A DNA stretch of 64,000 nt, taken from Aquincola tertiaricarbonis (GTDB taxonomy: Bacteria; Pseudomonadota; Gammaproteobacteria; Burkholderiales; Burkholderiaceae_C). The notes under the pieces are model-generated. The model did not search any database and was not told the DNA's origin. It saw nothing but the letters and a program-made list of their open reading frames with translations. Below, one piece after another: positions 2,228 through 43,667 of the stretch (the stretch's first letter is position 1; each line of letters begins with the position of its first letter). The DNA lies in the NCBI RefSeq assembly GCF_023573145.1, contig NZ_CP097636.1:3767860-3831859 (forward strand). The letters run 5' to 3'. Position numbers and translations under genes: made by a program.

Positions 2228-3415
2228 TCAGCTGCGGCCCGGCCGCTGGTCGCCCAGCAGCTCCTGCAGCACGGCCTCGGTATCGGCGCCCAGTTGCGGC
2301 GGCGGCCGGCGCACCGGCAGCCGTTCGCCGTCGATGCGGTAGGGCGGCGCCAGCACATGGGTGCTGCCGGCCACCGGGTGCGGCTGCACCGTGACCAGGC
2401 CGCCTTCCACCGCGCGCGGTGAGGTCAGCGCCTCATGCAGGCCCAGCACCTCGCCACAGGGAATGCCGGCGGCCGACAACGCGGCCAGCAGTTGCGCGCG
2501 CGGCCTGCGGGCCAGCTCGGCATGCAGCACCGGCAGCAACTCGGCACGGTGGGCCGAGCGGCCGAGGTTGGTCTTGAAGCGCTCGTCGGCGGCCAGCTCG
2601 GGCCGCTCGATCACCTCGGTGCAAAAGCGCTGGAACTGCGCGTTGTTGCCCACGGTGATGACGATGGGACCGTCGGCCGCATCGAACACGCCGTAGGGCA
2701 CGATGGACGGGTGCGCATTGCCGTAGCGCGGCGGGTCTTCGCCCATCAGCAGCGCTTCCAGGCCGTAGTAGGCGGTGATCATCAGCCCGCAGTCGAACAG
2801 TGCCATCTCCACATGGCGGCCGGTGCCGGTGCGCTCACGCTGGTACAGCGCGGCCAGCACGGCCTGCGCCGAGTACATGCCGGTCATCAGGTCGACCGCG
2901 GCCACGCCGAACTTCAGCGGCGGCTGGGTGGCCTCGCCGTTGAGCGCCATCAGGCCCGCCTCGCCCTGCACCACCAGGTCGTAGCCGGGGCGTGCAGCCT
3001 CGCTGCCGCCGCGGTTGTAGCCCGAGACCGAGCAGTAGATCAGCCGCGGGTTGTCGGCCTTCAGCTGCTCATAGCCCAGGCCCAGCTTCTCCATGCCGCC
3101 GAACTTGAAGTTCTGGATCACCACGTCGCACTGCGCGGCCAGCGCCTTGGCGGTGGCCTGGCCTTCGGGCGTCTGCAGGTCGAGCGCGATCGACCGCTTG
3201 TTGCGGTTCATGCTGTTGAAGTAGGCCGTCTCGGTCTGGCCCACGCGCAGGCCCCAGTCGCGGGTGTCGTCGCCACGGCCGGGATGTTCGACCTTGATCA
3301 CGTCGGCGCCGAAGTCGCCCAGCACCATGCCGCACAGCGGGCCGGCCAGCACGCGGGAAAAGTCCAGCACTCGCACGCCGGCCAGCGGCAATCCAGGCAT
3401 CGCGTTCATCGTCAT
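2228..3415 (-). CDS. CaiB/BaiF-type (family III) CoA-transferase
   Basis: The 395-residue protein has the full length of family III CoA-transferases, which move CoA between acyl-CoA thioesters and free acids through an aspartyl intermediate. The start region GVRVLDFSRVLAGPLCGMVLGDFGADVIKVEHP is characteristic (quoted here as motifs, residues about 10-45). The RPGYD segment carries the likely catalytic Asp near residue 150. The start overlaps the stop of the upstream enoyl-CoA hydratase gene by four bases (ATGA), indicating translational coupling. In the operon it most likely activates the acid substrate, using an acyl-CoA such as succinyl- or acetyl-CoA as donor. The exact acid cannot be read from sequence. 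Confidence 0.9.
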   Translation of the reverse strand: MTMNAMPGLPLAGVRVLDFSRVLAGPLCGMVLGDFGADVIKVEHPGRGDDTRDWGLRVGQTETAYFNSMNRNKRSIALDLQTPEGQATAKALAAQCDVVIQNFKFGGMEKLGLGYEQLKADNPRLIYCSVSGYNRGGSEAARPGYDLVVQGEAGLMALNGEATQPPLKFGVAAVDLMTGMYSAQAVLAALYQRERTGTGRHVEMALFDCGLMITAYYGLEALLMGEDPPRYGNAHPSIVPYGVFDAADGPIVITVGNNAQFQRFCTEVIERPELAADERFKTNLGRSAHRAELLPVLHAELARRPRAQLLAALSAAGIPCGEVLGLHEALTSPRAVEGGLVTVQPHPVAGSTHVLAPPYRIDGERLPVRRPPPQLGADTEAVLQELLGDQRPGRS

Positions 3416-35342: not shown

Positions 35343-37466
35343 CTAGCCGCGACCCGCCCCCACCGTGCGCAGGTCCTGCACCACCCGCCCCTGCTCCAGC
35401 ACCACCACGCGGCTGGCGCTGGCAATGGTCTCGGGCCGGTGGGCCACGATCACGCGGGTGAGCGGCAGCTGGCGGATGCTCTGGTTCACCGCACGCTCAC
35501 GGTCCACGTCCAGCGCGCTGGTGGCCTCGTCCAGCAGCAGCACCTGCGGTCGCTTGTACAGCGCACGTGCCAGCAGCAGCCGCTGCTTCTGCCCGCCCGA
35601 GATCGCGGCACCCATGTCACCTATCAGTGTGTGGTAACCCATAGGCATTGCCTCAATCTCGTCGTGCACCGAGGCCATGCGGGCGCATTCTTCGATCCAC
35701 GCCGAATCTGGCGCCGCGTCGAAGAAGCAGATGTTTTCACTGATGGAGCCGGCGAACAGCACGTCCTCCTGCATCACCGTGCCGATCATCGAGCGCCAGC
35801 GCGCCAGGCCCAGCTGCGCCAGCGACAGGCCGCCCACGCTCACCTCACCCGCCTGCGGCGCATGGATGCCCAGCATCAGCTTCAGCAGCGTGGTCTTGCC
35901 GCAGCCGGAAGGTCCGACGATGGCCACCGACTCGCCTGGCTCGATCGCCAGCGTCACACCGCGCAGCACCTCGGGCTCGGCGTCGGAATAGCGGAAGCTG
36001 AGCTCGCGCAGCTCGATGCGCGCCGCCGCGGGTAGCGGCCGCTCCGCCGGCAGCTCGGGCTCGGGCGCCGCCAGCACGATGTCGGCCAGCCGCTCGCCCT
36101 GCAGCCGCAGCATCTTCAGCTCCACCGCCTTGTCGATCAGCGCGCTGAAGCGGGTGGCGAACTGCTCCTTGAAGGCGATGAACGCGAACAGCATGCCGAC
36201 GGTGAAGTGCTCATCCATCACCAGCAGCGCGCCCACCCACACCACGGCCACGCGCTCCAGCCCGAACACCAGCTTGTGCAGCACGCTGAACAGCAGGTCG
36301 ATGCGGCGGGTGGCGATGTCGGCGTTCATCGCGTCCACCACCAGGTTCATGAAGCGGCCCTGCCGGTCGGCCTGTCGGTTGAACAGCTTGATGGCCTGCA
36401 CGCCGCGCAGCGATTCGAGGAAGTGGCTGGCCTTGCGCGACTCATGCACCAGCGATTCTTCGGTGGCCTCGCGCAGCGGCCGGAAGAAGGCCCAGCGCAG
36501 CAACGCATACACCGCCACCGCGGCCAGCACGATGGCGGTGAGCCGGCCGCTGTAGGCGGCCATCATCGCCAGCGTGGCCAGCACCATCACGCCGTCCAGC
36601 ACCGCTTCCACGAAGCTGGTGGTCAAGGTCTTCTGGATCTGCTGCACCGCCGAGAAGCGCGACCAGATGTCGCCGGTGTGGCGCTTCTCGAACCAGGCCA
36701 CCGGCAGCCGCATCAGGTGCGCGAACACATTGGACAGCCACTGCAGGTTGAGCGTGGCCGACAGCACCAGCACCGCCCACGAACGCACCGCGCCGGTGGC
36801 CACCTGCAGCAGCACCAGCAGGCCGAAGCCCAGCCCCAGCGTCACCAGCAGGTCACGGTCGCCGCTGACCAGCACGCCGTCCACCACCCACTGCAGCAGA
36901 AAGGGCGACAGCAGCAGAAAGGCTTCCAGCACCAGCGCCAGCACGAACACCTGCGCCATCGCGCGCTTGAGGCCGCTCACGCGGCCCAGCAGCCGCCGCA
37001 GGCTCAAAGGCTGGCGCTCCACCCGCGGCTCGAAGCCGCCGGCCGGCGTCAGCTCCAGCGCAATGCCAGTGAAGTGCCGCGACAGCTCCGCCAGCTTCAG
37101 CCGCCGCACGCCCTGCCCCGGATCGTGGATCACGGCCACGCCCCGCTGCACCGCCACCAGCACCACGAAGTGGTTCATGTCCCAGTGCAGCACGCAGGGC
37201 AGCTGCAGGCCGGCCAGGTGCTCGGGCTCGGCGCGCAGCGCCCGCGGCGCCAGCTGCAGCTCACCCGCGATGCGCACCAGGTCGCCCATCGAAGCGCCCT
37301 TGAGCGACAGCGAAAAGCGCCGCCGCAGCGTCGGCAGGTCGGTGTGCAGCCCGTGCGCCGCGGCCACCATCGCGATGCAGGCCAGGCCGCATTCGGCGGC
37401 TTCGGTCTGCAGCAGCATGGGCACGCGGCGGCGGGCGCGCCACCCGAGGTTCAGGCGGTCCAGCAT
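35343..37466 (-). CDS. C39-peptidase-containing ABC exporter (PCAT) for double-glycine peptides
   Basis: The 707-residue inner-membrane protein both cleaves and exports peptides with Gly-Gly leaders. The N-terminal C39 domain has the oxyanion Gln20, catalytic Cys26 (TEAAECGLACIAMVA), His99 (HWDMNHFVVL) and Asp115 (IHDPGQG), so the protease should be active. Six membrane segments follow (residues about 155-430). The ATPase has Walker A GPSGCGKTTLLKL, signature ISGGQKQRLLLARAL and Walker B VLLLDEATSALD. I start it at 37466, 5 bases after the HlyD stop; the longer frame overlaps hlyD. Its obvious substrate is the peptide encoded at 38757-38924. Confidence 0.95.
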   Translation of the reverse strand: MLDRLNLGWRARRRVPMLLQTEAAECGLACIAMVAAAHGLHTDLPTLRRRFSLSLKGASMGDLVRIAGELQLAPRALRAEPEHLAGLQLPCVLHWDMNHFVVLVAVQRGVAVIHDPGQGVRRLKLAELSRHFTGIALELTPAGGFEPRVERQPLSLRRLLGRVSGLKRAMAQVFVLALVLEAFLLLSPFLLQWVVDGVLVSGDRDLLVTLGLGFGLLVLLQVATGAVRSWAVLVLSATLNLQWLSNVFAHLMRLPVAWFEKRHTGDIWSRFSAVQQIQKTLTTSFVEAVLDGVMVLATLAMMAAYSGRLTAIVLAAVAVYALLRWAFFRPLREATEESLVHESRKASHFLESLRGVQAIKLFNRQADRQGRFMNLVVDAMNADIATRRIDLLFSVLHKLVFGLERVAVVWVGALLVMDEHFTVGMLFAFIAFKEQFATRFSALIDKAVELKMLRLQGERLADIVLAAPEPELPAERPLPAAARIELRELSFRYSDAEPEVLRGVTLAIEPGESVAIVGPSGCGKTTLLKLMLGIHAPQAGEVSVGGLSLAQLGLARWRSMIGTVMQEDVLFAGSISENICFFDAAPDSAWIEECARMASVHDEIEAMPMGYHTLIGDMGAAISGGQKQRLLLARALYKRPQVLLLDEATSALDVDRERAVNQSIRQLPLTRVIVAHRPETIASASRVVVLEQGRVVQDLRTVGAGRG

Positions 37467-37471
37467 CGGCG

Positions 37472-38695
37472 CTACACCCGCCCGGCCATGCCGAGCAGCG
37501 GCTCGAAAATCCACTCGATCAGCCGCCGGCGGTCGAGCTGCACGTCGGCTTCCAGCTGCATGCCGGGCAGCAGCGGCTGCGGCTCGCCATAGGCCTGCAC
37601 CGTCTGCCGCTCCAACGCCACGGTCACGCGGTACATCGGCTCGGCCTCGGGCCGACCGGGCACCGGCGTGCGCGAGACCTGCAGCACCCGCCCCGGCTGG
37701 GCGCCGAACTTCTGGTACGGAAAGGCCTGGTAGCGCATCAGCACCGGCTGCGCCGGGCGCAGAAAGCCGATGGCGCTGGACGGCGCGACCAGCTGCGCCA
37801 GCAGCGGTGCATCGCCCGGCATCAGCCGCGCCAGCACGGAGGCAGCCGCCACCGACTGGCCCGGCTCGGCCGTCAGCGCGCCCACCACGCCGTCCTGCGG
37901 CGCGCGGATCAGCTGCTGGCGGCGGGCTTCGGTCTGCGCCGTGTCGCCGGCCAGGCTGGCGGCTTCGCGTTCGATCTCGCCCAGCTGCGATTCGGCCTGC
38001 AAGGGCAGCTCACGCAGCTCGGCCTGCAGCGCCGCCAGCGTGCGCGCCTGCTGCTGCTTTTCCTGCGCGAGCGCCTGCAGGCGCTCACGCTGGTCCAGCA
38101 CGTCCTGCTGCTTGGCGCGCAGCTGCGCGGGGGCGATGAAATCCTGGTCGCGCAGCGATTCGAACTGCGCCAGCGCCTGCTCGGCCAGCTGCAAGCGCTG
38201 CTGCTGCAGCCCGGTGCGCTCGTCGAGCAGCGCGCGTTCTCGCGTGAGGTCACGGATGCGGCTGGACAAGGCGGCCACGCGTTCGTCGCGCAGCGCCAGC
38301 GTGCGCTCGGCAGCGGCCTGCAGGCTGCGGCGGCGTTCATCCAGGCTGCGGCGCACCGCGGCCTGGGTTTCGCCCTGCCCGCTGCTGCGGTCGAGCGTGA
38401 GCACGAACAACACGTCGCCCCGCCGCACGCGGTCGCCTTCGCGCACGCGGCGCTCCAGCACCACGCCGTCCTGTGGCGTGCGCAGCTCCAGCAGGCCACC
38501 CTGCGGCACCAGCTCACCGGACAGGCGGGCCTTGCGGGTGTAGTGCCCCAGGTACAGGAAGCTGCCGACGGCCAGCGCCGCGGCCACCACCAGCACGGTC
38601 AGCCAGCGCAACGACAAGGGCTGCGCCAGCCGGATGTGACCGATCCATTGGTCGCGCTGATGGTCCAGCGCTTCGCGCCGGAACAGGCTGGACAC
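37472..38695 (-). CDS. HlyD-family membrane fusion protein
   Basis: The 407-residue protein bridges the ABC exporter to an outer-membrane channel. One membrane helix is near residues 33-52 (TVLVVAAALAVGSFLYLGHY). A lipoyl half-domain follows (PQDGVVLERRVREGDRVRRGDVLFVL), then a long coiled coil (residues about 105-240), the second lipoyl half (APQDGVVGALTAEPGQSV) and beta domains. It starts at a GTG at 38695, 61 bases after the peptide gene, on the same strand. No TolC-like gene is in the window, so a chromosomally distant TolC is presumably used. Confidence 0.93.
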   Translation of the reverse strand: MSSLFRREALDHQRDQWIGHIRLAQPLSLRWLTVLVVAAALAVGSFLYLGHYTRKARLSGELVPQGGLLELRTPQDGVVLERRVREGDRVRRGDVLFVLTLDRSSGQGETQAAVRRSLDERRRSLQAAAERTLALRDERVAALSSRIRDLTRERALLDERTGLQQQRLQLAEQALAQFESLRDQDFIAPAQLRAKQQDVLDQRERLQALAQEKQQQARTLAALQAELRELPLQAESQLGEIEREAASLAGDTAQTEARRQQLIRAPQDGVVGALTAEPGQSVAAASVLARLMPGDAPLLAQLVAPSSAIGFLRPAQPVLMRYQAFPYQKFGAQPGRVLQVSRTPVPGRPEAEPMYRVTVALERQTVQAYGEPQPLLPGMQLEADVQLDRRRLIEWIFEPLLGMAGRV

Positions 38696-38756
38696 GGTCA
38701 GGAAAGTCTCAACGAGCGCTGCGGCCGATCAGGCGTGCAGCGCGCGGGGGTGTCGA

Positions 38757-38924
38757 TCACCAGCCGCCGACGCGGGGCAGGCCACCGGTGACTTGGCTCA
38801 GCAGGCGCTCGTCCAGCACGATGGGGGCGGCGGGCTTTTGCGAGGTAGCACCCGTTTGCGGAGCGGGCGTGCGCACTTGCTGGGAAGCCTGGGCGGCAGC
38901 GGCGTTGAATTGCGATTGGGCCAT
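38757..38924 (-). CDS. Double-glycine leader peptide, predicted substrate of the C39 exporter
   Basis: A 55-residue peptide (MAQSQFNAAAAQ...PRVGGW) with AGGAG 6 bases before its ATG. Residues 37-48 read LDERLLSQVTGG. This fits the double-glycine leader rule with Leu at -12, Leu at -7, Val at -4 and Gly-Gly at -2/-1. Cleavage after Gly48 would release only LPRVGGW. The leader itself is long, hydrophilic and Ala/Gln-rich. The gene sits between the LuxR regulator and the hlyD/exporter genes, all on one strand. It could be a bacteriocin-like or a signalling peptide. An upstream GTG at 38960 would add 12 residues, but lacks a good ribosome site. Confidence 0.8.
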   Translation of the reverse strand: MAQSQFNAAAAQASQQVRTPAPQTGATSQKPAAPIVLDERLLSQVTGGLPRVGGW

Positions 38925-38972
38925 GGGTCGACTCCTGGGGTTTAGAAGATGCGTCTTCACAACGACGCGTCC

Positions 38973-39021
38973 CTATTGCAGCAGTCGGGCCCATCACAGG
39001 TAACTGTAAGCTCTTACAGCT
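38973..39021 (-). promoter_or_regulatory. Lux-box promoter of the double-glycine peptide gene
   Basis: AACTGTAAGCTCTTACAGCT (39002-39021) contains the perfect palindrome CTGTAAG-CT-CTTACAG and matches the Vibrio fischeri lux box at 15 of 20 positions. On the minus strand a -10-like CAATAG follows at 38973-38978. That puts the palindrome centre near -43, where LuxR-type activators bind. The half-sites also fit LexA (CTGT-N8-ACAG), so both readings must be kept open. A small palindrome GAAGA-TGCG-TCTTC (38945-38958) lies in the leader. Confidence 0.65.
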
Positions 39022-39029
39022 TGCGCCCT

Positions 39030-39743
39030 TCAATGGATCAAGCCTAGGCGCAGCGCCTTCAGCACCGCCTGGTGCTTGGTGGCGCAATCCAGCTTGTGCA
39101 TGGCATTGTTAATGTGCATGACGGCGGTGCGCTGCGAGATCCCTAGGATGGTGCCCACCTCCCATGCGGTCTTGCCTTCCATCGTCCACTTCAGCGCCTC
39201 GATCTCGCGCACGGTCAGGGCCGGCCGCTCCGGCTGGCGGCTGGGCGGCACGAGGATGCGCAAGGCCGTGTCCTGCGCATGCACGGCAAACAGCTGCAGG
39301 TCGGCCACGATGCGCGTCAGCTCGCGCCTGTCCTCCGGCAGCGGCGCATCCCGGTCCACGCCCAGCAGGAAGTGTTTGCCTTCGGGCAAATGAAGTGCCA
39401 TGGCCACGCCGGTGCGGTAGCCGAAGGCGGCCTGCTCTTCCCACAGGTCGCCCAGGCCGGTCTTCAGGTAGGTGTCCTGCGACCATACCAGCGGCACGCT
39501 CTGGCGCTTCAGGTGCTGCAGCACGGGGTCGCGGCGCGAATCGGCCACACGCTGGTAGGCCTCCTCGTAGCCCGGTGGGGTGTTGCCCACCGCGATGAAG
39601 TCGGCATCCTGGCCGTGCTGTTCCACCACGGTCACCGCGCTGACCGTGTTGAAGCCGATGTCCTGCGTGAAGCGCAGCACCGCGCTCCTGAATTCATCGA
39701 CGTCGCGGGCTTCGAGCACCGCGAGATAGTGGCCCTGCAGCAT
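39030..39743 (-). CDS. LuxR-family regulator with an autoinducer-binding domain (LuxR solo in this window)
   Basis: The 237-residue protein has an N-terminal AHL-binding domain and a C-terminal LuxR helix-turn-helix. Aligning with TraR numbering, the conserved residues Tyr63, Asp72 (in RRDPVLQHL) and Trp87 (in VPLVWSQD) are present. The invariant Trp57 position is Tyr59 (PPGYEEAY). The DNA-binding domain has the invariant Glu180, Leu184 and Gly190 (LTVREIEALKWTMEGKTAWEVG). AGGAAG precedes the ATG. No luxI homologue is visible in the window. It is 106 bases upstream of the Gly-Gly peptide gene and likely activates it. Confidence 0.93.
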   Translation of the reverse strand: MLQGHYLAVLEARDVDEFRSAVLRFTQDIGFNTVSAVTVVEQHGQDADFIAVGNTPPGYEEAYQRVADSRRDPVLQHLKRQSVPLVWSQDTYLKTGLGDLWEEQAAFGYRTGVAMALHLPEGKHFLLGVDRDAPLPEDRRELTRIVADLQLFAVHAQDTALRILVPPSRQPERPALTVREIEALKWTMEGKTAWEVGTILGISQRTAVMHINNAMHKLDCATKHQAVLKALRLGLIH

Positions 39744-39777
39744 CAGACTTCCTGCACCGATCTCTGTGGCACCTGCA

Positions 39778-39797
39778 TCCTGTCAAGGTTTACAGCT
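39778..39797. promoter_or_regulatory. Second lux-box-like site, between luxR and the divergent small gene
   Basis: TCCTGTCAAGGTTTACAGCT shares CTGT-N8-ACAGCT with the site in front of the peptide gene. It lies 35 bases upstream of the luxR ATG and 85 bases upstream of the plus-strand gene at 39882. It may therefore autoregulate luxR, activate the small gene, or both. Confidence 0.5.
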
Positions 39798-39881
39798 TGA
39801 TGCGTCGTGGCCGATGACCAAGACTGCCACCCTGTCGCCAAGCTCCTCCGGCCAGCCCACCTCTCAATTTCCCGAAAGACG

Positions 39882-40262
39882 ATGACACCCTCATGGACGC
39901 TGCATGCCTGGCCCACCGTATTGTGGCAGGCGACTTCCAAGCGCCACCTGCACTTCGTGCACCACGATACCCGCGTGATGTCGACCGGTGATGCGCACGC
40001 GCCACTGAGCGGCCACACCTTGTGGGTCGGCCCGCTGGGCGACGTGGATGCCGGCGTGGCCTGGGACTGGGTGCAGCTGTGTCCGGGCGTGGTGGCGATG
40101 GCCGACCCGATGTGCGTGGTGACCAACCTGCGCCTGGTGGACCCGGCCGGTTCGGTGCTCACGGCCTGGGAATCGGCCCGCCACCTGACCGAGATCGTGC
40201 ACGGCCTGCCCTGGCAGGACGAGGTGGAACGGGCGCTGGGCGCCGCTGCACTGCTGAACTGA
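39882..40262 (+). CDS. Hypothetical protein divergent from luxR
   Basis: I do not recognise this 126-residue protein. It starts MTPSWTLHAWPTVLWQATS, is rich in Trp and His in the first third, and ends in an amphipathic helix (WQDEVERALGAAALL). There is no signal peptide, membrane segment or Cys cluster. A GTG at 39807 would add 25 residues, but the ATG at 39882 leaves room for a promoter after the lux-box-like site at 39778. Its divergent position suggests it belongs to the LuxR regulon. An immunity, adaptor or signal-related function is speculation. Confidence 0.6.
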   Translation: MTPSWTLHAWPTVLWQATSKRHLHFVHHDTRVMSTGDAHAPLSGHTLWVGPLGDVDAGVAWDWVQLCPGVVAMADPMCVVTNLRLVDPAGSVLTAWESARHLTEIVHGLPWQDEVERALGAAALLN

Positions 40263-40267
40263 GGCCC

Positions 40268-41449
40268 TCACCGCACTGCCGCCGGCCGCAGGCGGCGCGC
40301 CACGTCGGCGATGCCCAGCGCGGCCAGCAGGCCGCACACGGCCAGCGGCGCCAGCAGGTCGGTCAGGGGCACCACTTCGGCTGCCAGCACGCGGTTCATC
40401 AAGGTCACCTGCCCCAGCGCCGGCACCCACAGCTGCCAGGGTTGCGGCCCGGCGTCGTTGAACAGTGCCACCAGCGGCAGCACCGAGACCAGCAGCACGA
40501 TGACGGCCGAGTTGGCCTGCGCCTCCTTCACGCTGCGGCAGCGGATGGCCACCGCCATCAGCACCGCCGACACCGCAGCCGCCAGCGGCACCAGCAGCAC
40601 CAGGAACATCAGCGCCTCGTGCCAGCCGTACTGGAACATCGCGGCCAGCGTCTCGCTGCGCAGCAGCCACTGCGCCGGCAGAAAGCTGAACGAGCCCAGC
40701 AGCGCCACGCCCATGGCCACGCTGGCCACCGCGGCCCACTTGCCCAGCACCAGCGCCAGCGGCGGCGCGGGGTTCATCAGCAGCGGCTCCAGCGAGCCAC
40801 GTTCGCGCTCACCGGCGGTGGAATCCAGCGCCGCCGGCAGCGCGCCGTACAGCACCGCCATCAACACCAGGATGGGCACAAAGGCGGAGAGCTGCGCCGC
40901 CCGGCCGCGCGGCGTGGACAGGTCGCGCGGCTGCACGTCCACCAAGTCGAGCACCGCCGGTGAGGTGCCGCGCAAGGCCAGGCCCAGCGTGGCGCGTTCG
41001 TTCACATAGCCGCCCACCAGCCGCGCCAGCCGGGCAGCGGCCGATTGCGAGCGCGGGTTGGCGCCGTTGCTCACGATCTGCAGCTGCGGCCGCTGCGCGG
41101 CGGCCAGTGCGGCGTCGAAGCCCGGCGGCACCACCAGCACCGCATCACCCAGCCGGTTGCGGCGCAGCAGGTCTTCGTAGTCGGCCGGGGCCGGCACCAC
41201 GCGCCAGGTCTGCCGCGCCAGATAGTTGGCCAGGCCGGGGGCCTGGTCGATGCCCAGCACGCGCACCTCGCGCTGCTCGGCCCGCTGCTCCATGTCGGCC
41301 ATCAACACCGACAGCACCACCAGCAGCACCGGCCCCACCGCCACCGAGCTGAGCAGCACCGTGGCCAGCGTGCGCCGGTCGCGCAGCGCGTCCAGCAGCT
41401 CCTTGCCATAGACCACCCAGGCCGCGGCCAGCACGCGCCCCAGCCTCAT
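40268..41449 (-). CDS. ABC-2 type permease (NatB-like)
   Basis: The 393-residue membrane protein has one N-terminal helix (LATVLLSSVAVGPVLLVVLSVL), a large extracytoplasmic domain of about 150 residues, and five or six C-terminal helices (from residue 190). This is the layout of NatB/CcmB-like ABC-2 permeases. The segment ERERGSLEPLLMNP is strongly conserved in NatB. Its ATG overlaps the ATPase stop as ATGA. It works with the ATPase at 41446-42207. NatAB exports sodium in Bacillus, but homologues may export other solutes or peptides. Confidence 0.88.
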   Translation of the reverse strand: MRLGRVLAAAWVVYGKELLDALRDRRTLATVLLSSVAVGPVLLVVLSVLMADMEQRAEQREVRVLGIDQAPGLANYLARQTWRVVPAPADYEDLLRRNRLGDAVLVVPPGFDAALAAAQRPQLQIVSNGANPRSQSAAARLARLVGGYVNERATLGLALRGTSPAVLDLVDVQPRDLSTPRGRAAQLSAFVPILVLMAVLYGALPAALDSTAGERERGSLEPLLMNPAPPLALVLGKWAAVASVAMGVALLGSFSFLPAQWLLRSETLAAMFQYGWHEALMFLVLLVPLAAAVSAVLMAVAIRCRSVKEAQANSAVIVLLVSVLPLVALFNDAGPQPWQLWVPALGQVTLMNRVLAAEVVPLTDLLAPLAVCGLLAALGIADVARRLRPAAVR

Positions 41450-42207
41450 GGCGCCAGGGCCTCCGGCCCGAAGGCCAGGTGCACGAAGGCGTCCTCGAAG
41501 TCCGCCTGGCCGCTGCGCTGCAGCAGCTCGTCCACGCTGCCGTCGGCCACGGTGCGGCCGGCCGACACCACCACGACGCGGTCGCACAGCCGCTGCACCT
41601 CTTGCATGATGTGGGTGGAAAACACGATGCACTTGCCTTCGTCGTCACGCAGCCGGCGCAGGGCCTCGCGCAGCGCGCGGGTGGCCAGCACGTCCAGCCC
41701 GTTGGTGGGTTCGTCCAGGATGATGTTGGCCGGGTCGTGCACCAGCGCACGGGCCAGCGCGGTCTTCATGCGCTCGCCCTGGCTGAAGCCGTCGGTGCGG
41801 CGGTCCAGCAGCGGCACCATGTCCAGCACCTCGGCCAACACCTCCACCCGCTGCAGCGCGGCGGCGCGGCTCACCCCCTGCAGCCGGCCGTAGTACACGA
41901 TGTTCTCGCGCGCGGTCAGCCGCGGGTACAGCCCGCGCGCATCGCTGAGCACGCCCATGCGCGCCAGCGCGCGCTGCGGGTCCACCGCCACGTCGATGCC
42001 ATCCACCAGCACGCGGCCTTCGTCAGGCACCAGCAGGCCGGCCACCATGCGCAGGCTGGTGGTCTTGCCGGCGCCGTTGGGGCCCAGCAGGCCGGTGATG
42101 CAGCCGTCGTCGGCACGAAAGTGCACGCCGTCCACCGCCTGCACCTGGCGGGCGCTGCGGCCACGGCCGCTGCGAAAGCCCTTCTTCAGGCCCTGCACCT
42201 CGATCAT
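41446..42207 (-). CDS. ABC transporter ATP-binding protein (NatA-like)
   Basis: The 253-residue ATPase has Walker A GPNGAGKTTSLRMVAGL near residue 42, signature FSQGERMKTALARALVHDP and Walker B NIILDEPTNGLDVLA. The start at 42207 (MIEVQGLKKGF) overlaps the stop of the peptidase gene by four bases. It is the energy subunit for the permease encoded directly downstream. The substrate is not deducible. Confidence 0.92.
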   Translation of the reverse strand: MIEVQGLKKGFRSGRGRSARQVQAVDGVHFRADDGCITGLLGPNGAGKTTSLRMVAGLLVPDEGRVLVDGIDVAVDPQRALARMGVLSDARGLYPRLTARENIVYYGRLQGVSRAAALQRVEVLAEVLDMVPLLDRRTDGFSQGERMKTALARALVHDPANIILDEPTNGLDVLATRALREALRRLRDDEGKCIVFSTHIMQEVQRLCDRVVVVSAGRTVADGSVDELLQRSGQADFEDAFVHLAFGPEALAP

Positions 42208-43667
42208 CGGCGCGGCTCCGGGGCTGATGCCGGGGACGTCGATGACATAGAGAAAGGCAGCGGCGCCGGCACCTGCACCGCGCAGGCGGCATCGGCCGCC
42301 ACCCGCTCCAGCGCCGCGGCTTCGTCGGCGGTATCGACGAAGCGGTAGAGCACGTCGCGCATGCAGGGCAGCATGGCCACGCCGTGGCCGGCGTTGGGCA
42401 CCACCACATGGCGGGCGCGCGGGCCCAGCGCAGCGGCCACGCGCTCGCCATGGCGGGGCGGCGTGGCCGGATCCAGCCCGCCCGAGAGCAGCAGCACCGG
42501 CACCGGCGCGCGCGGCAGATGGTAGAAGGCGGGGGGCACGCTGCCGCGCGGCCAATCGGCACAGGCGTCGCGGTAGCGGCGCAGCAGCGGGTCTTCATCG
42601 GCAGCGGGGGGTGGCAGGCGCGGGGCGTCCTCGGCGCACACCACCGAGAAGTGCATGCCCATGGCCACGCCGGTGCCGCGACGGCCGGTGGCGGCATGGG
42701 CCAGGCCGGCCAGCGGTTCCAGCCGGCCGCGGGTGGCTTCGTCCATGGCCTGCGGCAGCGCCGAGGCCAGCACCGGCGAATACAGCGGGCCGCGCAGCAC
42801 CGTGTCCAGCACTTCGGCGGTCACGGTCTGGCGCTCCGGCTCGCCCGTCACCGGATGGCGCACCGTCCATTCACGCGGCAGGCTGGCGCGCAGGCTGGCC
42901 CAGCGCTGGCGCAGCTCGGGGTGGCGGCTGCGGCAGTCGGCGTTCTGTTCGCAGCCGCTGAACACCGCTTCCAGCGCGCGCCGCTGGTCGGTGGCAAAGG
43001 CCTGGGGCAGCACCATGTCGGGCGGCGCCACGCCGTCCAGCACCACACGGCGCACCTGCTGCGGGTACTGGCGCAGCACCTCCAGCGCCAGCCGCGTGCC
43101 GTAGGAGGCGCCCACCAGGTTGATGCGGGCAGCACCCAGCTGCCGGCGCACCGCGTCCACGTCGCCCGCCGCGATCGGCGTGGTGAACTGGCGCAGGTCG
43201 CCATAGGGCAACGCCTTCAGCGTGGCCAGGCACTGGGCGATGCGCTGGCGCTGCTCGCCGCGCTCGAACTGCTGCGCCAGCGGCGCGCGGCCTTCATCGT
43301 CGTCGCACAGCAGCGGCGCGCTGCGGCCGGTGCCGCGCTGGTCGATCAGGACCACGTCGCGCCGGTTGAGAAAGCGCGACAGCATGCCGCTGATGGGGCC
43401 GGCCAGCTCGATGCTGCTCTGCCCCGGCCCACCGGCGAAGAAGAACACCGGGTCGGGCTGCTTGTTGCGGGCGAGCGCCGGCAGCACCGCATAGTGCACC
43501 GTGATGCGGGTGCCGCGCGGCTGCTGCGGATCCAGCGGGCGTTCCACCTGGCCGCAGCGGGCCTCGTGCTCGATGCCGTCGAGCCGGCAGGGGGTAAGCG
43601 CGGGCGCCGCGCCCACGATGCTGCAGGCCAGCAGTCCGGCCGCGGCCAGCGCCGCCCGGCGTTTCAT
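42204..43667 (-). CDS. Exported S33-family alpha/beta hydrolase (tripeptidyl aminopeptidase-like)
   Basis: The 487-residue protein has a signal peptide with LLAC, which may be a lipobox. The hydrolase core has FFFAGGPGQSSIEL (oxyanion loop HGGPG-like), DQRGTGRSAPLLC, the nucleophile in LVGASYGTRLALEVL, and the C-terminal LLLSGGLDPATPP (Asp) and PNAGHGVAML (His) motifs. The triad is complete. Such enzymes remove N-terminal residues or tripeptides from small peptides in the periplasm. The gene is coupled on both sides by ATGA overlaps. A link to the neighbouring Gly-Gly peptide system is possible but unproven. Confidence 0.88.
   Translation of the reverse strand: MKRRAALAAAGLLACSIVGAAPALTPCRLDGIEHEARCGQVERPLDPQQPRGTRITVHYAVLPALARNKQPDPVFFFAGGPGQSSIELAGPISGMLSRFLNRRDVVLIDQRGTGRSAPLLCDDDEGRAPLAQQFERGEQRQRIAQCLATLKALPYGDLRQFTTPIAAGDVDAVRRQLGAARINLVGASYGTRLALEVLRQYPQQVRRVVLDGVAPPDMVLPQAFATDQRRALEAVFSGCEQNADCRSRHPELRQRWASLRASLPREWTVRHPVTGEPERQTVTAEVLDTVLRGPLYSPVLASALPQAMDEATRGRLEPLAGLAHAATGRRGTGVAMGMHFSVVCAEDAPRLPPPAADEDPLLRRYRDACADWPRGSVPPAFYHLPRAPVPVLLLSGGLDPATPPRHGERVAAALGPRARHVVVPNAGHGVAMLPCMRDVLYRFVDTADEAAALERVAADAACAVQVPAPLPFSMSSTSPASAPEPRR

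Follow-up and report, generated by a model that had tools for sequence, protein, structure and literature searches.

A candidate quorum-sensing circuit of Aquincola tertiaricarbonis in which a LuxR-type receptor may read an encoded peptide

Introduction

In textbooks, acyl-homoserine lactones (AHLs) are sensed by LuxR receptors, and signalling by peptide pheromones belongs to Gram-positive bacteria. Here, we describe a five-gene unit of Aquincola tertiaricarbonis that consists of a divergent rsaM-type gene, luxR, a double-glycine (GG) precursor gene, hlyD and the gene of a C39 ATP-binding cassette (ABC) exporter. It lies in a stretch of 64,000 nucleotides (contig NZ_CP097636.1, positions 3,767,860 to 3,831,859), which is referred to below as the window. 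Two lux boxes, a name for the palindrome CTGTN8ACAG, accompany the genes. Based on the gene order, the lux boxes, a family of precursors, core-only mini-genes and the covariation of the peptide core with the receptor pocket, all of which are read from the DNA itself, the unit is likely to be a quorum-sensing circuit whose signal, read by LuxR, is a ribosomal peptide in place of an AHL.

The component families of the unit are known and it is the pairing of receptor and signal that appears to be new. Double-glycine peptides with C39 (PCAT) exporters share with the locus the leader consensus, the HlyD partner and the Cys-His-Asp peptidase, but the cargo of the window family is a core of 5-7 residues or tandem copies of it, placed behind a lux box. 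As a whole, the layout is that of an rsaM-luxR-luxI unit in which the synthase has been replaced by a peptide gene. In a review (PMC10710839), rsaM genes are described as adjoining luxI and/or luxR, and the likeness between such LuxI/LuxR systems and the window comprises the rsaM-type gene beside luxR, the lux boxes and a signal gene that is probably controlled by LuxR. In the window, however, no luxI was found and a short-peptide gene follows luxR. The topology type 6 of that review, in which rsaM is divergent from a LuxR solo in Albitalea, Kinneretia, Pelomonas, Thauera and Xenophilus, may include members of the window-type unit; neither the word peptide nor the word transporter appears in that review.

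In the RRNPP systems of Gram-positive bacteria, such as Rgg-SHP, a short peptide gene likewise adjoins a cytoplasmic receptor-activator. Export, trimming and re-import belong to those systems (PMC7595303), whereas they are only proposed for the window unit. The latter is not an RRNPP member because its receptor is of the Autoind_bind/GerE (LuxR) type; it also has a Gram-negative host and a Pro-Trp core, and many precursors of its family have a GG leader, an adjoining C39 exporter and tandem cores. Among the PipR/OryR LuxR solos, a LuxR homologue was reported (PMC4981722) to respond via an ABC importer to peptide-like compounds, including the tripeptide Ser-His-Ser, but that signal is external (plant or hydrolysate) and is not encoded beside the receptor. 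A later review of LuxR solos gives the ethanolamine derivative HEHEAA as the PipR ligand (PMC10134790). In the portion of the open-access literature that was covered, with preprints outside the scope, no description of a LuxR with an encoded peptide ligand was found, as judged by titles and the openings of abstracts, and one may exist in print.

Results

Gene content of the locus

The features of the locus are as follows (window positions).

35343..37466, minus strand: C39-peptidase ABC exporter, 707 aa (Pfam Peptidase_C39, E 3.7e-31; ABC_membrane; ABC_tran)
37472..38695, minus strand: HlyD-type membrane fusion protein, 407 aa (Pfam HlyD_3, E 8.6e-18)
38757..38924, minus strand: candidate pheromone precursor, 55 aa, with a double-glycine leader to residue 48 (translation)
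38760-38780, minus strand: core LPRVGGW of the precursor (translation)
39004..39019, no strand: lux box CTGTAAGCTCTTACAG, ~80 nt 5' of the peptide start codon (pattern match)
39030..39743, minus strand: LuxR-type receptor/activator, 237 aa (Pfam Autoind_bind, E 2.3e-20; GerE, E 8.5e-13)
39780..39795, no strand: lux box CTGTCAAGGTTTACAG in the luxR-rsaM intergenic region (pattern match)
39882..40262, plus strand: gene of an RsaM-type regulator, divergent from luxR, with a further open start (GTG) at 39807 (weak PF16245 match, predicted fold)

The initial annotation had placed the LuxR, Gly-Gly peptide, HlyD and C39-ABC genes on one strand, and with this the coordinates, the Pfam domains and the translation agree. 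It was equally right about the 55-residue leader peptide (38757-38924) and about the exporter triad Cys26-His99-Asp115, as residues 26, 99 and 115 are C, H and D. The divergent RsaM-type gene, the two lux boxes and the family of peptide cores go beyond it. The precursor is of the double-glycine type, its leader LDERLLSQVTGG standing beside an exporter that has the Cys, His and Asp of the peptidase, and since this leader is followed by LPRVGGW at the end of the protein, cleavage after Gly-Gly would free a peptide of seven residues. The exporter is the sole PF03412 match in the 7.1 Mb source genome at E <= 0.001.

The receptor belongs to the LuxR family, with 73.0 bits for Autoind_bind (cut-off 23) and 48.2 for GerE (cut-off 23.5); its profile matches in the PDB are RhlR, LasR and QscR, and its predicted model has a pLDDT (predicted local distance difference test) of 86. 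The product of the divergent gene matched PF16245 at E 0.0026 and 18.1 bits, under the cut-off of 25, while 12 of its 17 homologues matched at E <= 0.01 (best 1.1e-5). Its sole PDB profile match is 4o2h (E 0.006), an RsaM homologue (BCAM1869) that is also matched by the predicted fold (pLDDT 90; E 2.8e-5, template modelling score 0.71). Because the profile score is below the cut-off yet the fold matches 4o2h, the protein is named RsaM-type and not a member of the Pfam family.

Recurrence of the unit and the family of cores

A scan of species genomes with an alignment of LuxR yielded 168 relatives, of which the best 80 loci, chosen by LuxR alone, were retained; they come from Rubrivivax, Roseateles, Ideonella, Methylibium, Piscinibacter, Rhizobacter, Leptothrix and other genera. 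An rsaM homologue is present in 79 of the 80 (the exception is L112), HlyD follows luxR in 66, and both HlyD and ABC follow it in 65. The 14 loci without HlyD include L065, L089 and L111, and because these sequences end ~530 bases or less from luxR, only 11 are true absences of the exporter. Nearly every locus has, between luxR and hlyD, a precursor that combines a GG-type leader with a short core. Searching for the four-gene synteny and comparing the leaders thus confirmed that a Gly-Gly peptide is conserved beside homologous exporters.

Cores were chosen by eye in the 78 loci with enough sequence, which together with the window gives 79 precursors. The pattern xPxxxW was found in 68 of them, and 71 end in Trp, as does LPRVGGW of the window; the eight non-Trp cores (LPRVS, LPRVG or LPRxGGL) belong to loci of related LuxRs. 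Cores of relatives include LPKGTW, APKGTW and GPNGGW. A strict automatic rule, an open reading frame (ORF) ending in PxxxW-stop, was satisfied in 58/78 loci and a looser one in 71/78, the latter being less specific, since 403 of 9651 ORFs elsewhere also pass it. Among plus-strand ORFs located 60-500 nt past luxR, 58/343 end in PxxxW-stop, compared with 46/9651 elsewhere and 0/333 on the opposite strand of the same region; this enrichment and the HlyD and ABC genes in 65/80 loci exceed chance.

A GG-type leader was recognised by motif in 72 of the 79 precursors, with L109 a false positive and L053 a near miss, and GG itself is present in 67 of the 72. Its consensus consists of Leu at -12 (67/72), Leu at -7 (66/72) and Val at -4 (67/72) before GG. 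Exact repeats of the core (at least two copies, up to five, with variable spacers) occur in 30/79 precursors, for instance four copies of LPRGTW in L042 and five of GPNGGW in L099, and several precursors carry residues that trail the Trp. Two slightly unlike cores, such as LPHRTW/LPHGSW or APKSFW/APKSYW, are present in the precursors of L038, L050, L095 and L106, which are possibly mixed signals.

Across four close relatives, the window included, the core is identical and the leader varies: compared with L034, the window has one synonymous and no nonsynonymous difference in the core, and 13 and 12, respectively, in the leader. As leaders diverge fast, the precursor family is visible via synteny and is missed by a search with the precursor, which as sole query reached close relatives alone (2/299 genomes in one search, three proteins in another). 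Neither the window precursor nor eight others had a Pfam or NCBIfam model above the cut-off, and source records name the precursors hypothetical or uncharacterized protein.

Covariation of the core with the receptor pocket

Core distances were compared with protein distances by Mantel tests (500 permutations) in 64 loci, including the window, in which all four proteins were present. The core followed the LuxR ligand domain most closely (0.306), then RsaM (0.258), the exporter parts (0.157-0.204) and HlyD (0.174), with 0.025 for the LuxR DNA-binding domain. When the other proteins were controlled for, the ligand domain retained 0.215 (p 0.002, the lowest possible with 500 permutations), and the core did not track the DNA-binding domain, HlyD or the exporter (C39 domain, p 0.09). 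A scan of 948 columns in 50 non-redundant loci placed the top column for each of the five core positions in the LuxR ligand domain.

The pocket was defined by the LasR residues in PMC9654057, shifted by one according to the LasR alignment, and LasR pocket residues were also looked up in PMC10613653. At LuxR residues 126-128 two alignments to LasR disagree, and the chosen one sets 126 on LasR 127. Two garbled entries of the LasR list, presumably Leu39 and Leu40, were left out of the main test. The 17 variable pocket columns exceeded the 98 other columns of the ligand domain (median combined z 4.60 vs 0.89, p 9e-5, 50 sequences). This excess persisted at 80% redundancy (32 sequences, p 2.6e-4) and in 78 LuxRs that included those of the leaderless loci described below (p 4.7e-7), while the ligand domain outside the pocket showed no excess over the other proteins (p 0.78).

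As neither columns nor sequences are independent of one another, the pocket bias was compared with 220 mock features, namely columns of HlyD, ABC and RsaM, of which 0, 0 and 1 matched it for core positions 1, 3 and 4. The bias is 2.19, 1.87 and 1.88 for these positions and small for leader residues (-0.47 to 0.57). In 32 disjoint pairs matched by ABC sequence, the core edit distance followed pocket substitutions (rho 0.71) and other substitutions of the ligand domain (rho 0.58), and the pocket contributed beyond the latter (partial rho 0.63, p 1.2e-4). Individual pairings, in counts that include near relatives, are core Ala1 with Cys114 (15/17), core Gly1 with Phe126 (6/6) and Asn3 with Lys100 (7/8). 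A C-terminal Trp goes with Phe49 in 80/84 cases and never with Met39, and other C-termini have Phe49 in 0/12 and Met39 in 9/12. To judge from these residues, the pairings look chemical. The covarying LuxR residues include 39, 49, 63, 104, 114 and 126.

Lux boxes

In 73 of the 80 loci, a CTGTN8ACAG box, typically CTGTAAGAGYTGACAG, lies no more than 500 bases past the stop codon of luxR, and outside the luxR flanks the pattern has four matches in 0.92 Mb. Because a lux box precedes the peptide gene, control of its promoter by LuxR is likely, and the layout of the boxes is that of a putative autoinducing loop. The motif CTGTMARNNYTKACAG matches the source genome three times, at the peptide promoter, in the luxR-rsaM gap and near a LuxR paralogue, with 0 matches for the reversed motif. 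In 20 relatives with this LuxR it has 29 matches (control, 2), 18 at the peptide promoter, two between luxR and rsaM and nine elsewhere; the promoter box is present in 18 of the 20 genomes and two genomes have none. The box at 39780..39795 has a CTGTN8ACAG counterpart in just 2/80 relatives. The third box of the source genome lies at position 3381 of locus L114, 641 bases downstream of the paralogue, and the ORFs after it include one that by eye resembles a LuxR-type helix-turn-helix protein. At the site of the box after luxR, L121, L122 and L128 show by eye another palindrome, of the CTACAAG...TGTAG type.

Leaderless genes and absence of the exporter

In seven of the 11 true absences of the exporter, a leaderless short ORF keeps the core, although some of these ORFs also have longer open starts: L035 (MQVFTQAQAVALLPRNGW), L051 and L054 (both MQATHQTQTTTLLPRNGW), L062 (MQAVKTVSTRPVQLPRAGW), L100 (MIATTTRQANTTTELPRAGW), L109 (MTAIARRIDTAPQLPKQGW) and L107 (five TPRGGSW-like units). 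The peptide genes of L051 and L054 differ by three synonymous and zero nonsynonymous changes. The Rhizobacter loci L079, L103 and L104 retain a precursor with a GG leader and have no HlyD match in a locus of 12.7 kb; L095 has a GS variant of the leader and no adjoining exporter. More distant LuxRs that have an rsaM homologue also have leaderless ORFs, namely L120 (MSQAAIAVRTSFPRTGW), L121 (MICLPRVGW) and L128 (MLCAHFDAVVLIPRIGPW), with a less clear core in L122, L123 and L125; the smallest, such as MICLPRVGW, have nine codons. As the leaderless ORFs keep the core without an exporter, the constant pair is LuxR and core and not exporter and core, and RsaM joins this pair in almost every locus.

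In a tree of 96 LuxRs, the leaderless and GG formats are separated by four changes, three of which are forced by well-supported branches. One clade of ten LuxRs is entirely leaderless and is the deepest under midpoint rooting, with several long branches in it.

The source genome has further LuxR genes. The second, L115 (G000:C1:2978700-2983500), has a LuxR that is 46% identical, its own rsaM homologue and the leaderless MTQSHSIAPAFPRVGF, and one cell may run two peptide channels, that of the window and that of L115. A third LuxR, 52% identical (L114, G000:C1:670500-675500), has neither an rsaM match nor a clear peptide. A genome of the same genus (L124) has MQHPTNQAPGFPRVGF as well as an ORF that ends in MTSFPRVGF.

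LuxI and the AHL-contacting residues

No LuxI (PF00765) was matched in the source genome. The same search matched 0 of 14 control genomes and 30 of 298 genomes of the family, and these 30 matches serve as the positive control. Of the 69 family genomes whose LuxR orthologue is strong (E <= 1e-80), nine have a LuxI-family match, as do 21 of the 229 others; two of those nine are weak and partial, and the nearest, a weak partial one, is ~17 kb from luxR. In 79 LuxRs, the position of LasR Trp60 is occupied by Tyr (54), Phe (20) or Trp (5), and that of Tyr56 mostly by Thr (41), Ala (22) or Cys (9).

Distribution and neighbouring genes

The nearest named relatives of the window LuxR and precursor are from Aquincola. 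LuxR homologues at E <= 1e-40 number 3997 in the protein collection, a count that covers LuxR irrespective of the peptide, and an HlyD homologue (E <= 1e-20) is present in 108 of the 298 family genomes. A class-wide LuxR search at E <= 1e-35 matched the source genome alone (1/321) in a sample whose share of the own family is only partly visible, and no LuxR relatives were found in viral contigs. A search for plasmid DNA similarity matched 575 records, none over 80% of the query; among those listed, the annotated matches are exporter and HlyD genes.

An ABC-2 transporter pair flanks rsaM in the window (40268-42555). ABC ATPase matches ~2 kb past rsaM recur in loci without the exporter, e.g., L054, L079 and L100, and perhaps mark an old chromosomal neighbourhood. 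L112, L116, L117 and L118 have three to five consecutive LuxR matches next to the peptide locus, which looks like a multiplication of receptors.

Discussion

The initial annotation had proposed that an AHL-responsive LuxR switches on secretion of the peptide. Control of the promoter by LuxR is likely, given the lux box, while an AHL as the trigger is unsupported: the source genome has no LuxI match, the Trp60 position is Tyr or Phe in 74/79 LuxRs and the pocket covaries with the peptide. Rather than an AHL-triggered output, the peptide is probably the signal of LuxR, and a single signal acting on LuxR is the more economical reading. For the circuit as such we infer secretion, trimming, import, binding and activation, as well as the traits that it would regulate. 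The C39/HlyD exporter would release the precursor and cut it after Gly-Gly, which in the window would by itself yield LPRVGGW. X-Pro bonds resist common aminopeptidases; peptidases would trim the product to a short xPxxxW unit and would halt at the X-Pro bond. The peptide would then re-enter through a general peptide importer, whose involvement is assumed, and the core would bind in the LuxR pocket that is equivalent to the AHL pocket of LasR. LuxR would in turn activate the lux box ahead of the peptide-hlyD-abc genes, giving positive feedback, and the RsaM-type protein would probably restrain the loop. Where the precursor is leaderless, the peptide may be released by a different route or may act within its producer, which is the weakest step.

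Several observations weigh against a peptide-reading LuxR. Asp72 and Trp87 (Asp73 and Trp88 in LasR, where they contact the AHL) are kept in 79/79 LuxRs, so that the receptor may still bind an AHL. The cores of the 96 LuxRs were picked by eye, and the automatic rules reach 58 (strict) and 71 (loose) of the 78 loci. A box is missing from 7 of the 80 loci, and of the ten box matches away from the locus in 21 genomes, the five inspected by eye had no common target. The leaderless genes have no obvious export route. As for the covariation, RsaM also follows the core (partial 0.144, p 0.008), each core position has 9 to 14 ABC columns among its top 25, and the combined top 20 list contains ABC and HlyD columns. 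The idea of the pocket came from the same data before the list was fixed from the paper. Core position 5 and the last residue are within the controls, as 26/220 and 50/220 mock features reach their bias; the non-Trp C-termini of the main group are confined to one part of the tree; and in the 32 pairs, a pooled Fisher test gave no significantly higher pocket share of substitutions when cores differ (p 0.28).

In the main rival explanation, the peptide acts within the cell as a ligand or co-factor of LuxR or RsaM and carries no signal between cells, with export as a disposal or timing step. Mini-genes without leader and exporter favour this explanation, as does RsaM, which also tracks the core. 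It is nevertheless unlikely in view of the exporter genes that follow luxR in 65/80 loci and the GG-type leader found by motif in 72/79 precursors; as it overlaps with the peptide circuit on the receptor, the odds given to the readings do not sum to one. It is rather unlikely that LuxR senses an AHL, its own or foreign, or another small molecule, and that the peptide is merely a secreted output acting elsewhere. The Autoind_bind domain, the lux boxes, the invariance of Asp72, Pro73, Trp87 and Gly112 in the main LuxR set and the LuxI-family matches in 9/69 strong-orthologue genomes (two of them weak and partial) would fit such a system. It is opposed by the source genome, without a LuxI in a search that matched 30/298 family genomes, by the Tyr or Phe at the Trp60 position and by the peptide residues that covary with the pocket, which those of a peptide acting elsewhere should not do.

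C39 exporters commonly serve bacteriocins, and the best NCBIfam match of the window exporter is a bacteriocin-export model, although far under its cut-off (498.6 of 853.3 bits). An antimicrobial role of the peptide, as a bacteriocin or otherwise, in which LuxR would serve as a density switch, is still very unlikely: the core has just 5-7 residues and is kept in leaderless genes without an exporter, the window precursor and the eight further ones have no Pfam or NCBIfam family over the cut-off, and the core covaries with the pocket. The least probable explanation is that the conserved Pro...Trp-stop end governs the operon in cis, by ribosome arrest or as an attenuator, for which short ORFs with a conserved Trp-stop C-terminus upstream of an operon would be suitable. 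The cores are, however, repeated up to five times with variable spacers, residues trail the Trp in several precursors, and some mini-ORFs without an exporter precede, by eye, an apparent terminator; the GG leader with its exporter and the pocket covariation also argue against arrest.

With somewhat less assurance than for the circuit of the window, we favour the wider view that it represents an undescribed class of quorum sensing across Sphaerotilaceae and their kin, in which the AHL pockets of LuxR proteins were re-tooled for encoded xPxxxW peptides. This class would have two formats (GG leader with exporter, and leaderless) and lineage-specific cores that co-evolve with the pocket, so that its pherotype code would be readable from sequence. 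If this is true, a LuxR that reads a ribosomal peptide joins the worlds of AHL receptors and peptide pheromones and could account for some of those LuxR solos for which no ligand is known. The signal would be obtainable as a synthetic peptide and thus directly testable, and the loci would offer natural receptor-peptide pairs for studying how signalling specificity evolves. It would also mean a new mode of communication among many related soil and water bacteria.

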